Source of the DNA: Bacillota bacterium
GTDB lineage: Bacteria; Bacillota_A; Clostridia; Peptostreptococcales; Anaerovoracaceae
DNA length: 5,607 bases
Direction: 5' to 3'
Assembly: GCA_017556895.1 (NCBI GenBank)
Contig: JAFYLX010000174.1
Span: 1-5,607, forward strand
Shown here: positions 3,069-5,607 of the stretch, piece after piece
How positions within the stretch are numbered: position 1 is the stretch's first letter
How the letters are laid out: each line of letters starts with the position of its first letter
Made by a program: the position numbers and the translations under genes
The notes under the pieces: generated by a model
Told to the model about the DNA's origin: nothing
What the model saw: only the letters and a program-made list of their open reading frames with translations
Databases searched by the model: none

Positions 3069-3611
3069 TTACACCATCCATTCTTCTATTTCCATATCGT
3101 TAGACGCTAGGACTTGTTTAATTTGTTCTAACGCCGCAGTATTTTCTTCAATTTTAATTAAAGCTCTTTTAATTTCGCTTCAATCTTCATCGTCTTGTCA
3201 TCCTGAATTATTTTCTCAGGAGTCCGCAAGAACGTGAATAGTAAAATTAGTAGATGCGGAAACCGATATATCATCTACTAGTTCAATATGTGCTAATACG
3301 TCTCCTTCATGAAGCATTTCTTTCGGATAATAGATTTGTCATGTTGGAGGTAGCTCTTCCGCGGTCAACATAGATTCTTCATCGTCTTCTCTTGGAATTT
3401 CTGTAAAGACGTTATACCCTTTTATATCTTTTTGGATATGTCTCCACGATAAATATACTTTCGTATTGTCCGAGAATTGTGCGGCGGCCTCTTGTGTAAA
3501 TATGATACTAAGGTACCTGCCGTTAGCCTCTGCCGCACCTATAATAATCGGGTCCTCTATGTTCTGCGAAAGGGACTTCATATTAATGACTGTGCCCTTA
3601 AGCTGAATCAT
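3069..3611 (-). CDS. BppU-like baseplate upper protein (receptor-binding scaffold), 180 aa
   Basis: The full product is seen only when TGA is read as Trp at residues 91, 132, 138 and 144; the standard code would stop it after 90 residues. I chose the ATG at 3609-3611, with GAGG about 9 bases upstream; it overlaps the last 14 bases of the upstream gene. Residues 1-130 look like a beta-sandwich: MIQLKGTVINM, G-R-Y-L-S-I-I-F-T, V-Y-L-S-W-R-H-I, then Y-Y-P-K-E-M-L-H-E-G-D-V-L-A-H-I-E-L and S-A-S-T-N-F-T-I-H-V-L. A loading strand followed by G-x-V-x-x-x-I-x-L and S-x-x-F-x-I-x-V is the pattern of BppU N-terminal (DUF2479-like) domains of Gram-positive siphophage baseplates. Residues 145-180 are a short charged helix. 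It would link the baseplate to receptor-binding fibres. The family call is from memory of the pattern, not from a search. An alternative is another Ig-like appendage protein. Confidence 0.68.
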
Positions 3612-4191
3612 CGTTTTCAACCTCGTCTTCCATTGAGTTTACTACAGGAAGGGTTCGCAATTTAGCCATAATATTATCAACGAAACTATTGCCATCCGCA
3701 TCTTTGTAATATTTATATTTCTCTTCTAAAGCTTCTAGTGTGTTGGAATCAATTTTATGTTCCTTAATATAATAATAATTATAAGCATCTTTAAAAGCTC
3801 ATCTAGTATCATCTTGAAGTCTAGCTTGAACCTTTTTGTACATTTGCTGCATTTGCTTATTATGCTGTTGTATCTCTTGGTCACGTTTATAATCATTTTC
3901 TACATATTTTTCAACCTTTTCAAGACGAGCTCCTCGTTCGTCTGCCTTGGCTTCCAAATCATCAACTGCAACATGTAATTCTTTTACGTCTGTTTTAATT
4001 TCATCTATTCCATCGGTGACCTTGTTCATTCAGCGGTCTTTGTCGTTGGCAATATCAAAATGTTGTTTGATTTTCTCCCAGATAAACCCCGCAGCTCTCA
4101 TAATTGCTACACATAACAGAAGAGCAACTATAAGGACTGTGATAACATCACCTACACCATAATTGGATAGGAAAAAATTAAGTTCACTCAT
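3598..4191 (-). CDS. Membrane-anchored coiled-coil protein, holin-like, 197 aa
   Basis: The ATG at 4189-4191 follows an AAAGGA ribosome binding site by about 7 bases, and the gene ends at TAA 3598-3600. Residues 16-38 (VITVLIVALLLCVAIM and onward) form one transmembrane helix after a short polar N-terminus. Residues 55-127 are a long, highly charged coiled coil (DEIKTDVKELHVAVDDLEAK is part of it). After it comes a Tyr-rich segment (AYNYYYIKEHKI, about 136-147), then ALEEKYKYYKDADGNSFVDN and a short L-R-T-L-P-V-V end. A single N-terminal helix, coiled coil and Y..YI...I......Y..Y...G.N........LP tail is, from memory, typical of holin-like small membrane proteins near tail genes in gut Firmicutes phages. 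Trp 54 and 131 are TGA; with the standard code only the membrane part would be made. It is the first gene of the leftward operon. A lysis role is inferred; no endolysin is in the window to confirm it. Confidence 0.7.
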
Positions 4192-4219
4192 CTGCTATCC
4201 TTTCTTTGTTCAAAACTCT

Positions 4220-4225
4220 ATTGTA
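4220..4225 (-). promoter_or_regulatory. Possible leftward promoter -10 box
   Basis: TACAAT (part of TATATACAAT on the minus strand) lies about 29 bases before the ATG of the holin-like gene. No convincing -35 hexamer is present; TTATTA with an 18-base spacer to TATATA is the nearest. A promoter is expected here because the fibre gene to the right ends at a strong terminator, so the leftward operon needs its own start. The whole gene-free stretch 4192-4309 is AT-rich and shows nothing else I can name. Confidence 0.25.
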
Positions 4226-4307
4226 TATAAAAAAGAAGAATAACGGGTAATAAGAAGTTGCCCTAACATTTTGGCGTTAAGTTTTGTAATGTTTTGACTA
4301 AAATTTT

Positions 4308-4324
4308 TCTAGCTTTCCGTAAGT
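4308..4324 (+). repeat. Putative inversion site S1 (core TTCCGTAA at 4315-4322)
   Basis: The sequence TAGCTTTCCGTAA (4310-4322) is identical over 13 bases to site S2 at 4605-4617. It matches the 17-base consensus ATTAGYTTTCCGTAAAC at 13 positions. It marks the left edge of the cassette array, and the cassette to its right is read CTT-TCC-GTA-AGT through it. Confidence 0.65.
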
Positions 4325-4603
4325 AATGTTTTTAGAGGAAAAAATGTAGACGGGAATGTTTCAGCTGATAATTGCAAAAATGCAGGACTCTATTATTTTA
4401 CTTCTAGTCAAAGTGCCCCTAGTGGTATTAATGGTTGATTATTTGTGCTAAAAGATGAAGGCAATGCTGGTTTTATTAAACAAATATGAATTAGAATGGG
4501 CACACCAGGAAGTACTGACGCAGACATACTTTATAGAACAAGTGGAGATAATGGAGTAAATTGAGGAAAATGATATAAGGTTACCGCTACAAGCTATTCT
4601 TAA
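4313..4603 (+). CDS. Silent cassette 1: pyocin-knob-like fibre tip (no start codon)
   Basis: This 96-codon open segment is read with TGA as Trp from CTT-TCC-GTA at the putative recombination site to TAA 4601-4603. No start codon with a ribosome binding site precedes it; an in-frame TAG sits immediately upstream, so it cannot be translated where it is. It carries the pattern of the pyocin-knob / tail-fibre tip domain: N-V-D-G-N...A-G-L-Y-Y (about 11-28), G-W-L-F-V-L (41-46), Q-I-W-I-R (57-61), L-Y-R-T-S-G (73-78), then N-W-G-K-W-Y-K-V (83-90). That domain binds cell-surface glycans at the end of phage fibres. Trp 42, 59, 84 and 87 are all TGA; the W-x-x-W spacing is the best evidence in the window that TGA means Trp. 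It should become expressed after inversion of 4315-5600. Family assignment is by pattern only. Confidence 0.72.
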
Positions 4604-4619
4604 TTAGCTTTCCGTAAAC
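4603..4619 (+). repeat. Putative inversion site S2 (core TTCCGTAA at 4610-4617)
   Basis: ATTAGCTTTCCGTAAAC matches site S3 at 16 of 17 positions, and the match spans the stop codon and the bases outside the reading frame of cassette 1. Conservation across a coding boundary argues for a DNA-level signal rather than a shared protein motif. It begins cassette 2, read CTT-TCC-GTA-AAC. Confidence 0.7.
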
Positions 4620-4919
4620 GGATTAAAAATGAATTTTCAAACTGTTCCTTTTTCTGCGACAGTGAGTTCTAAAGCTACGTCAGAGAATATTCAAGTCACT
4701 GCATCTTTACCGGCTTATTATAGATTAGCTTATGTTGGAGTAGCAGATTTAAATTTTCCTTATACTATTATTCAAGCACAACCTGCAAATAATACTTATT
4801 TTAATTTTTCTAATTCTGCTAGAACTATAACTATTAATGTAACAATATTTAATAATTGAACTTCTTCATTAACATATAGTGGAAACGTAATTATAGGAAA
4901 AGTTCTTTTATTTGATTAG
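4608..4919 (+). CDS. Silent cassette 2: beta-rich fibre C-terminal domain (no start codon)
   Basis: This 103-codon segment runs from CTT-TCC-GTA to a TAG at 4917-4919 that itself forms part of the next site. An internal ATG at 4629 has no ribosome binding site and would remove the shared Leu-Ser-Val opening. The product begins LSVNGLKMNFQTVPFSATVS and then alternates hydrophobic and polar residues (IQVTASLPAYYRLAYVGVAD, then T-I-T-I-N-V-T-I-F-N-N-W), ending V-I-I-G-K-V-L-L-F-D. That alternation is what a trimeric beta-sandwich fibre tip looks like; I cannot name a family. Trp 84 is TGA (4857-4859), and the standard code would remove the last strand. It has no visible sequence similarity to the other three tips beyond the Ser-Val of the site. 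It would be expressed after inversion between S2 and S4. Confidence 0.68.
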
Positions 4920-4931
4920 TTTTCCGTAAAC
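4915..4931 (+). repeat. Putative inversion site S3 (core TTCCGTAA at 4922-4929)
   Basis: ATTAGTTTTCCGTAAAC differs from S2 only by T for C at the sixth position. It overlaps the TAG stop of cassette 2 and opens cassette 3, read TTT-TCC-GTA-AAC. Inversion between S3 and S4 would exchange cassette 3 for cassette 4 with the terminator between them. Confidence 0.7.
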
Positions 4932-5210
4932 CAAGGTTGAGAATATGTGGGAGCAGGAGCTGGTTCTTTTTCAACTAATCTAGCAAAATATTCGGCTTTT
5001 ATAGTTTTAGGTGCTTATGGAGATTATTTCCGTAACGTTTTTTTCACAAAAGATATGCTTCATAGCGGAATGTATATTGATGTTGATATGGCCCGTTTTA
5101 CCGGTACAGGAACTTTTGTTTGTTTTTCTTATACTTCAGACACAGCATGGGAACTTAAAACTAATGATAATAGACTTGGCGTTGGCTTAAGAGGTTTTAA
5201 AAAAATTTAA
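4920..5210 (+). CDS. Silent cassette 3: beta-rich fibre C-terminal domain (no start codon)
   Basis: This 96-codon segment runs from TTT-TCC-GTA through a TGA Trp (residue 7, 4938-4940) to TAA 5208-5210. The first possible start, a GTG at 4947, has no ribosome binding site. The product reads FSVNQGWEYVGAGAGSF, A-F-I-V-L-G-A-Y-G-D-Y-F (about 26-37), G-M-Y-I-D-V-D-M-A-R-F (48-58), T-F-V-C-F-S-Y-T-S and a final L-G-V-G-L-R-G-F-K-K-I. The aromatic-rich alternating strands fit a receptor-binding tip; no family is recognised. Its second Trp is TGG. It is followed by the shared terminator hairpin and faces the expressed cassette 4 tail to tail. An additional TTCCGTAA inside it (5028-5035) is in a different reading phase. 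Confidence 0.68.
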
Positions 5211-5224
5211 AATAATAAATAAAA

Positions 5225-5266
5225 AAGGGGCGTTTTTAGCGCGTTAACGCGTTAAAAACGCCCTTA
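5225..5266. terminator. Bidirectional, nearly symmetric terminator shared by cassettes 3 and 4
   Basis: GGGGCGTTTTTAGCGCG (5227-5243) pairs with CGCGTTAAAAACGCCCT (5248-5264) around TTAA, with G-T wobbles at 5239/5252 and 5227/5264. This gives a stem of about 18 base pairs counting the A-T pair at 5226/5265. A run of six T follows on the minus strand, and TTATTTT follows on the plus strand. It would therefore end the currently expressed leftward gene (cassette 4) and also stop transcripts in the other orientation. Because the stem is almost its own reverse complement, it keeps working whichever way the segment is turned. Confidence 0.85.
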
Positions 5267-5275
5267 TTTTCATAA

Positions 5276-5607
5276 TTAATTTCAATTTAATATTTCTAAT
5301 ACAGCTGCTTTTACTCACATAGTATCAGAACTAGTAAAATTTGAACCCGGTATCACAATTTCAAATTTTGATTCATTATCTACAATTAATGGAGTTCCTG
5401 TTATTTTAAGACTAATTGTATTATACGATATTCCAAAAACTACTGCTGGCATATAAACAACATTTGTTGAATAATTTAAATAATTTATATTGCCACTTCT
5501 TAATATATTACTTGTACTATATGTACATTGTACTTGATAAATTCTTCATTTACAAGAGTAATCTGTTCCATTTGCTTCTCGATAAAATCGAGTTACGGAA
5601 TCCCGTA
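5276..5607 (-). CDS. Expressed fibre gene C-terminus (cassette 4), N-terminus beyond right edge
   Basis: The reading frame (codons from 5605 leftward) enters from beyond the window and ends at TAA 5276-5278, giving 109 complete codons. It begins R-D-S-V-T-R-F-Y-R, where T-TCC-GTA-A is the same core, in the same phase, that opens the three silent cassettes. The frame stays open upstream of the core (CGG-GAT), unlike the silent copies, which have TAG there. This suggests that it is the cassette now joined to the constant fibre body. Strand-like segments include W-R-I-Y-Q-V-Q-C-T-Y, V-V-Y-M-P-A-V-V-F-G-I-S-Y, I-S-L-K-I-T-G-T-P-L-I-V, F-E-I-V-I-P-G and W-V-K-A-A-V-L-E-I-L, as in a beta-sandwich tip. 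All three Trp (KWRI, MWVK, NWN) are TGA. It is probably the receptor-binding end of a tail or baseplate fibre. The family is not recognised and the N-terminus cannot be seen. Confidence 0.7.
5593..5607 (-). repeat. Putative inversion site S4, inverted relative to S1-S3
   Basis: The minus strand carries TTCCGTAA at 5600-5593, in opposite orientation to S1-S3. Upstream of the core it lacks the TTAG of the silent copies and reads TACGGGATTCCGTA, in which TACGG and CCGTA form a 5-base inverted repeat around GATT. The upstream half belongs to the constant part of the fibre gene. The window ends here, so the full site cannot be seen. Confidence 0.62.

Follow-up and report, generated by a model that had tools for sequence, protein, structure and literature searches.

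A probable Rin-like shufflon of receptor-binding tips in a phage that appears to read TGA as tryptophan

Why would a phage keep three open segments without start codons next to a fourth one that is read from the opposite strand? This question is raised by the right end of the window, the whole stretch of 5,607 nucleotides that was analyzed. The original prediction was that the four segments are alternative C-terminal fibre tips behind a common site, with one copy inverted and expressed, and that such a four-way set looks new in a phage that uses TGA for tryptophan. Comparison with other loci supported the tips, the common site and the inverted copy, whereas the argument for novelty turned out to be partly wrong, as discussed below.

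Under genetic code 4, the forward strand contains three stop-to-stop frames (4313-4603, 96 aa; 4608-4919, 103 aa; and 4920-5210, 96 aa), and the reverse strand contains one (5276-5605, 109 aa) that is still open at the right edge of the window. A scan for the site placed TTCCGTAA, the core of a rix-like crossover site, at 4315-4322, 4610-4617 and 4922-4929 on the forward strand (cores 1 to 3) and, inverted relative to these, at 5593-5600 on the reverse strand (core 4). The frames and the site scan thus confirmed the predicted coordinates, but a fifth copy on the forward strand (5028-5035) had been overlooked. All four cores lie in one codon phase, T/TCC/GTA, so that every cassette starts with Ser-Val, and they open 95 to 107 residues. 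On the forward strand, these are the silent tip cassettes 1 (4316-4603, 95 aa), 2 (4611-4919, 102 aa) and 3 (4923-5210, 95 aa), and an in-frame TAG directly precedes the core in each case (4310-4312, 4605-4607 and 4917-4919, the last of which is also the stop codon of cassette 2). Cassette 4 (5276-5599, 107 aa) lies on the reverse strand and occupies the slot that we read as that of a constant fibre gene.

The number of sites and their common phase were compared with randomized sequences. Five copies of TTCCGTAA were found in the whole window, while 0.17 were expected, and none of 200 shuffles reached five. When the sites that share an 8-mer, lie in one phase and open at least 80 residues were counted, the real region yielded four, and 2000 first-order Markov versions of positions 4195-5607 yielded two at most. 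The fifth copy is probably a chance occurrence. It lies within cassette 3 in another frame and lacks an abutting stop codon, and it was rejected as a working site, as it would yield a 53-residue out-of-frame tail. The variable segments agree with those of the Rin systems in that an asymmetric short repeat directly precedes each of them at the 5' side in both orientations, and they are start-less, in phase with the site, of a similar size (95-107 residues) and mutually dissimilar. Global alignments of the four tips gave mostly short aligned stretches and no convincing similarity.

The three rightward segments might alternatively be separate small genes that are individually expressed. A gene caller did produce a 52-residue protein from cassette 1 by starting at an internal GTG; this protein (P0001) stems from a contig of 1,730 bases and, except for the start residue, is identical to the corresponding part of cassette 1. 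Yet the silent cassettes together contain just eight in-frame ATG or GTG codons, all of them at residue 8 or later, and a Shine-Dalgarno-like motif precedes none of the eight, versus three of four leftward genes (present for w2, w3 and w6, absent for w4; w5 was tested at an ATT, and w1 was left out). In addition, the in-frame stop codon abuts each silent site, and a crude scan, which returned fewer sites than shuffled sequences did, listed no sigma-70-like promoter on the forward strand from 4000 to cassette 1. Individual expression is therefore most improbable, and the description of the segments as start-less is true in the sense that is useful here.

The leftward copy differs from the other three in its flank. 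The seven bases 5' of core 4 (5601-5607 on the reverse strand, TACGGGA) lack the in-frame stop codon that abuts the three silent sites, and they read Arg-Asp before the Ser-Val of cassette 4. They are thus taken as the end of a presumed constant fibre gene that would lie to the right of the window. The reading of 5593-5607 as the constant slot is based on these seven bases and their GGGA flank, which also occurs at constant slots elsewhere, and with seven upstream bases in the window, the expression of cassette 4 is our inference. A 37-base stretch of cassette 4 had no exact match in IMG/VR, and no alternative isomer of the phage was found. Cassettes 3 and 4 converge at their 3' ends, and the near-perfect palindrome that separates them (5226-5265) has a predicted folding energy of -28.8 kcal/mol (z -6.4) on one strand and of -29.8 kcal/mol (z -6.7) on the other. 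It was called terminator-like on the forward strand only, while the longer T-rich run follows on the reverse strand. Any inversion between the constant slot and slots 1 to 3 would include this palindrome in the flipped segment.

The original prediction also held that TGA encodes tryptophan in this phage, and three lines of evidence bear this out. First, cassettes 1 to 4 contain 4, 1, 1 and 3 in-frame TGA codons, respectively, and w2, w4, w5 and w6 contain 3, 1, 4 and 2, so that the frames of the window need code 4 (w1 and w3 have none). Second, cassette 1 weakly matched a protein of Streptococcus phage Javan85, which uses the standard code (29% over 87 columns, E 7e-3), and this protein has a tryptophan opposite three of the four TGA codons of cassette 1 and a tyrosine opposite the fourth. 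Third, switching from code 11 to code 4 greatly raises the number of long frames in four relatives (L001-L004), e.g., from 3 to 16 frames of at least 150 residues in L003. The phage of the window thus appears to read TGA as tryptophan. One TGA-recoded relative also encodes a tRNA of 94 bases with the anticodon TCA (L060, G002:94247-94338), which ARAGORN labels SeC and which is a candidate opal suppressor.

Cassette 1 appears to encode a pyocin-knob-like fibre domain. A structure predicted from two sequences reached a middling pLDDT of 67.7, and its ranking against the PDB was headed by the R2 and R1 pyocin fibres, followed by receptor-binding proteins of Staphylococcus phages, in the 80alpha baseplate and the phi11 host-recognition device (best E 0.011). 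In BFVD, the best match was unnamed (E 2.4e-4), and many of the named matches were tail-fibre proteins. The model of cassette 4 was useless (pLDDT 49).

On the reverse strand, the genes w2 (432-884), w3 (952-2622) and w5 (3069-3608) encode conserved proteins of one tail/fibre module, and w6 (3598-4191) encodes, as judged by eye, a membrane-anchored coiled-coil protein; several relatives have a counterpart of it upstream of w5. Searches of IMG/VR with the window DNA or with single proteins returned no relatives, and w5 served as a query for finding them; alignments of w2 and w5 matched eight IMG/VR contigs, two of which (L002 and L003, with identical gene coordinates) look like one phage, plus two MAG contigs. 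In the genome contigs, alignment A1 had no match, and alignment A2 gave the two MAG contigs. The phage records contained no match for w4 or w2, none of 50,697 phage records matched cassettes 2, 3 or 4, and a scan with w3 added no record to the known relatives. The gene order w6-w5-w4-w3-w2-w1 is kept in L001 and L004, and fibre-like genes were seen by eye upstream of it. Directly upstream of w6, near the position that the array has in the window, these two relatives carry two tandem genes of about 55-60 residues (5601-6047 in L001, 5826-6272 in L004), each with a PVGS..GGTW-like motif as judged by eye.

No recombinase gene adjoins the array in the window. A Rin array has its tyrosine recombinase gene on the side that faces away from the constant gene. 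In the window, that side has 118 bases (4195-4312), which are too few for such a gene and contain no listed open reading frame, and then w6. Seven of the eight IMG/VR contigs, the virus records of the family, were searched together with the two MAG contigs: the recombinase domain PF00589 was detected in one of the seven, called G005 here, and in both MAG contigs, which are bacterial bins; the serine recombinase domain PF00239 was detected in none of the seven, and in both cases the virus records may be fragments. The array might be a relic that was built as a shufflon and whose silent tips were frozen when the recombinase was lost or because it was never present, in line with the missing neighbor and with the six family records, possibly fragmentary, that lack PF00589. 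Decay of this kind is at odds with four fully open cassettes, exact cores, a common phase and the abutting stop codons that are retained in all three silent cassettes, and the one family record with a recombinase argues further against it, as shown in the next paragraph. We regard a relic as improbable.

G005 (IMGVR_UViG_3300031853_000004) is a TGA-recoded record of 143,542 bases that is related to the window via w5 and w3. Its whole sequence contains TTCGGTGG seven times, all between 69.8 and 77.3 kb, and the reversed pattern, used as a control, occurs twice. Two sites lie on the forward strand (69827 and 70131) and five on the reverse strand (72019, 72214, 72564, 76703 and 77277), and each of them opens with Ser-Val in the same phase as in the window, for 59 to 190 residues. 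The site at 77277 is located 39 residues into a fibre-like gene that has a ribosome-binding site. One of the cassettes is similar to cassette 1 of the window (30% over 81 aa, E 4e-5). A tyrosine recombinase with the domains PF14659 and PF00589 is encoded at about 70834-71685, between start-less cassettes of both strands and thus within the array. It is about 5.6 kb away from the constant slot; a member of this family can thus have its recombinase far from the constant gene, which disfavors a relic. An array that adjoins its constant gene was rejected for G005, as the sites are spread over 7.5 kb. To reach the two forward slots from the constant slot, an inversion would have to turn around about 7 kb with other genes in it, which makes this array more dispersed than that of the window.

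The relatives of the G005 recombinase led to further arrays. Of 258 candidates, 32 were related to this enzyme at E 1e-10 or better, and 53 records of the phage collection matched it at the same threshold. Many of the 53 are plainly ordinary integrases, and the inspection covered the recombinases of Siphoviridae sp. ctl617 and of PMBT6. These two are the best matches of the G005 enzyme, a duplicate PMBT6 record aside, and are annotated as integrases (36%, E 6e-50 for ctl617; 34%, E 6e-44 for PMBT6). Both adjoin arrays of TTCCGTAA with flanks like those in the window. In ctl617 (L034, 2095-5791), TTCCGTAA occurs at seven array sites, six of which are silent with an abutting in-frame TAG, while the seventh lies inside a gene that is open for 171 codons upstream. 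Bifidobacterium phage PMBT6 (L033, 4508-6904) has four sites, one of which lies inside the CDS 6110-6904. Both arrays are TTCCGTAA shufflons whose annotations read integrase, tail fiber and hypothetical proteins. The phage collection contained no second isomer of ctl617. A further record, L036 (IMGVR_UViG_3300031853_000668), encodes a recombinase that is 51% identical to that of G005, together with an array with TTCGGTG sites that opens under the standard code. L036 and G005 stem from one metagenome, so that two phages with related switches were present in one sample. A third recombinase locus (L037, 27% identity) had no array, and its matches lacked abutting stop codons, as did those of its controls.

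The flanks of the slots were compared across the five arrays. An in-frame stop codon abuts 20 of 24 silent slots (window 3/3, ctl617 6/6, G005 4/6, L036 4/6 and PMBT6 3/3). The PMBT6 slots were counted by eye, the site at 5028 of the window and a sixth-frame near-match in PMBT6, TTCCCTAC, were left out, and the 24 include two slots that may not work (7710 in L036, 27 residues, and 5811 in PMBT6, 25 residues). The abutting stop codon is TGA in three of four cases in L036, and TAG or TAA in all seven cases in the window and G005. The motif GGGA precedes the site at four of five constant slots (in the window, ctl617, PMBT6 and L036, not in G005) and at one of the 24 silent slots (2673 in L036); the latter led us to reject the idea that it is exclusive to constant slots. 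A detector was then run on 26 sequences of at least 4 kb, with the two best matches per sequence and code and reversed sequences as controls. It found 3, 4, 6 and 4 sites with an abutting in-frame stop codon in the window, G005, ctl617 and L036, respectively, while every control and all other real matches had 0 or 1. Site counts alone failed to separate arrays from controls, since reversed GC-rich loci reached 5-7 sites. The PMBT6 array was missed by the detector and picked up by the pattern search.

The silent tips might also serve as templates for gene conversion or homologous recombination in place of site-specific inversion. Conversion systems also place several tips beside one expressed copy. 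In the window, the shared sequence barely exceeds 8 bases and the tips are dissimilar, which is too little for a homology-driven exchange, and the related arrays are accompanied by a tyrosine recombinase, so that conversion is scarcely to be expected here.

Taken together, the set of sites with its common phase, the slot flanks, the homology of cassette 1 and the parallel arrays elsewhere led us to assign a probability of roughly 82% to the view that a tailed, TGA-recoded phage here carries a Rin-like shufflon of its receptor-binding protein; in this phage, the system would further comprise a constant gene and a recombinase, with inversion and a change of receptor. The constant gene to the right of 5607 would supply the N-terminal part of the fibre, and TTCCGTAA would be the point at which one of the four unrelated C-terminal tips is attached to it. 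The three tips not in use point the other way and would stay silent, each with its own copy of the core and an in-frame stop codon directly before that copy. The exchange would be the work of a Rin-type tyrosine recombinase whose gene would lie in another part of the phage; flipping the stretch from the constant slot to one of the silent slots would bring another tip into expression, again in frame. The likely result would be a mixed phage population with varied receptor specificities.

How does this array compare to known systems? The available parts of two reports describe Rin as a tyrosine recombinase system of Bifidobacterium prophages with the 11-bp site TTCCCTAACCC, in which 168 constant residues are combined with 95-100 variable ones and inversions were observed both in prophages and in reads from virions, with all five full-length genes represented (PMC6109161), and as rin of Eggerthella lenta prophages with the site ttccgtat (PMC8778435). 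As far as these texts describe it, Rin shares with the window a short asymmetric site before each of several unrelated C-termini of about 95-100 residues, cassettes in both orientations and a tyrosine recombinase in the arrays (in those of relatives in the case of the window); the constant N-terminus of the receptor-binding protein is present in Rin and presumed, beyond the right edge, for the window. Unlike the Rin systems described there, the window comes from a TGA-recoded phage whose relatives are virus contigs of 43-143 kb, its array lacks an adjoining recombinase, and a terminator-like palindrome separates the opposed cassettes. Because the position that defines Rin holds no recombinase here, the array is filed as Rin-like and not as a proven member of Rin. 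PMBT6 and ctl617 share with the window the identical core, the GGGA before the constant site, the silent flank TAGCT (or TAGCA, TAGTT) and the Ser-Val phase; in contrast to it, they use the standard code, are records of 36.6 and 39.9 kb, have the recombinase at the flank of the array, and have the core lengthened by CCC at most sites. Min of p15B, Gin of Mu and Cin of P1 likewise swap tail-fibre ends by inversion, Min in a multi-way fashion, but according to the accessible text they use serine recombinases (PMC6109161), and PF00239 was detected in none of the seven family records.

Multi-way sets of tips are thus known from Rin and Min, and the original argument for novelty is wrong in that part, whereas the setting in a stop-recoded phage looks new. 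In the available part of a study on TGA-recoded zeta crAss-like phages, a retroelement-based variation of fibres is described and the term shufflon is absent (PMC12386605), and no description of a shufflon or an inversion in a recoded phage was recognized in the accessible text of the literature searched. This absence may in part reflect standard-code gene callers, which would cut such tips at TGA. What looks new is a shufflon in a stop-recoded phage whose relatives measure 43-143 kb, with no recombinase adjoining the array of the window. The recombinase of G005, which is written without TGA while its tips use TGA, also looks new.

The ratio of TGA to TGG codons in G005 is 0/8 in the recombinase and 8/6 in the six silent tips (Fisher p 0.018, small numbers). 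Among hand-picked genes, it is 0/36 in six genes on the forward strand, which include DNA polymerase III alpha and anaerobic ribonucleotide reductase, and 22/13 in 11 genes on the reverse strand. A less selected count took in every gene from 55 to 90 kb that has a Shine-Dalgarno-like start, although it missed the recombinase and started one gene late; it gave 4/55 for 13 forward genes and 24/18 for 19 reverse genes. Hence, the replication-side forward genes (55001-69774), which are presumably early, nearly avoid TGA, and the structural-side reverse genes (72614-89232), presumably late, use it. A complete absence of TGA from early genes was rejected, as a few are present (4/55). It is conceivable, albeit rather doubtful, that the shufflon is split over two genetic dialects, with a recombinase without TGA and tips in which TGA means tryptophan. 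Early synthesis of the recombinase would then be possible with the standard code, so that the choice of the tip would precede the late genes, and the tips would be whole only once TGA is read as tryptophan, so that the receptor repertoire would be gated by the change of the code. A recent acquisition could also explain a recombinase free of TGA.

In summary, four tips behind identical 8-base sites in a Rin-like layout suggest that this phage probably changes its receptor by flipping DNA. This would extend Rin-type receptor switching from actinobacterial prophages, the hosts of Rin in the available texts of PMC6109161 and PMC8778435, to a family of stop-recoded phages. The core, the Ser-Val phase, the abutting stop codon and the GGGA slot provide a cheap signature for the detection of further arrays, and the case of G005 raises a possible link between code switching and receptor switching that is open to testing.
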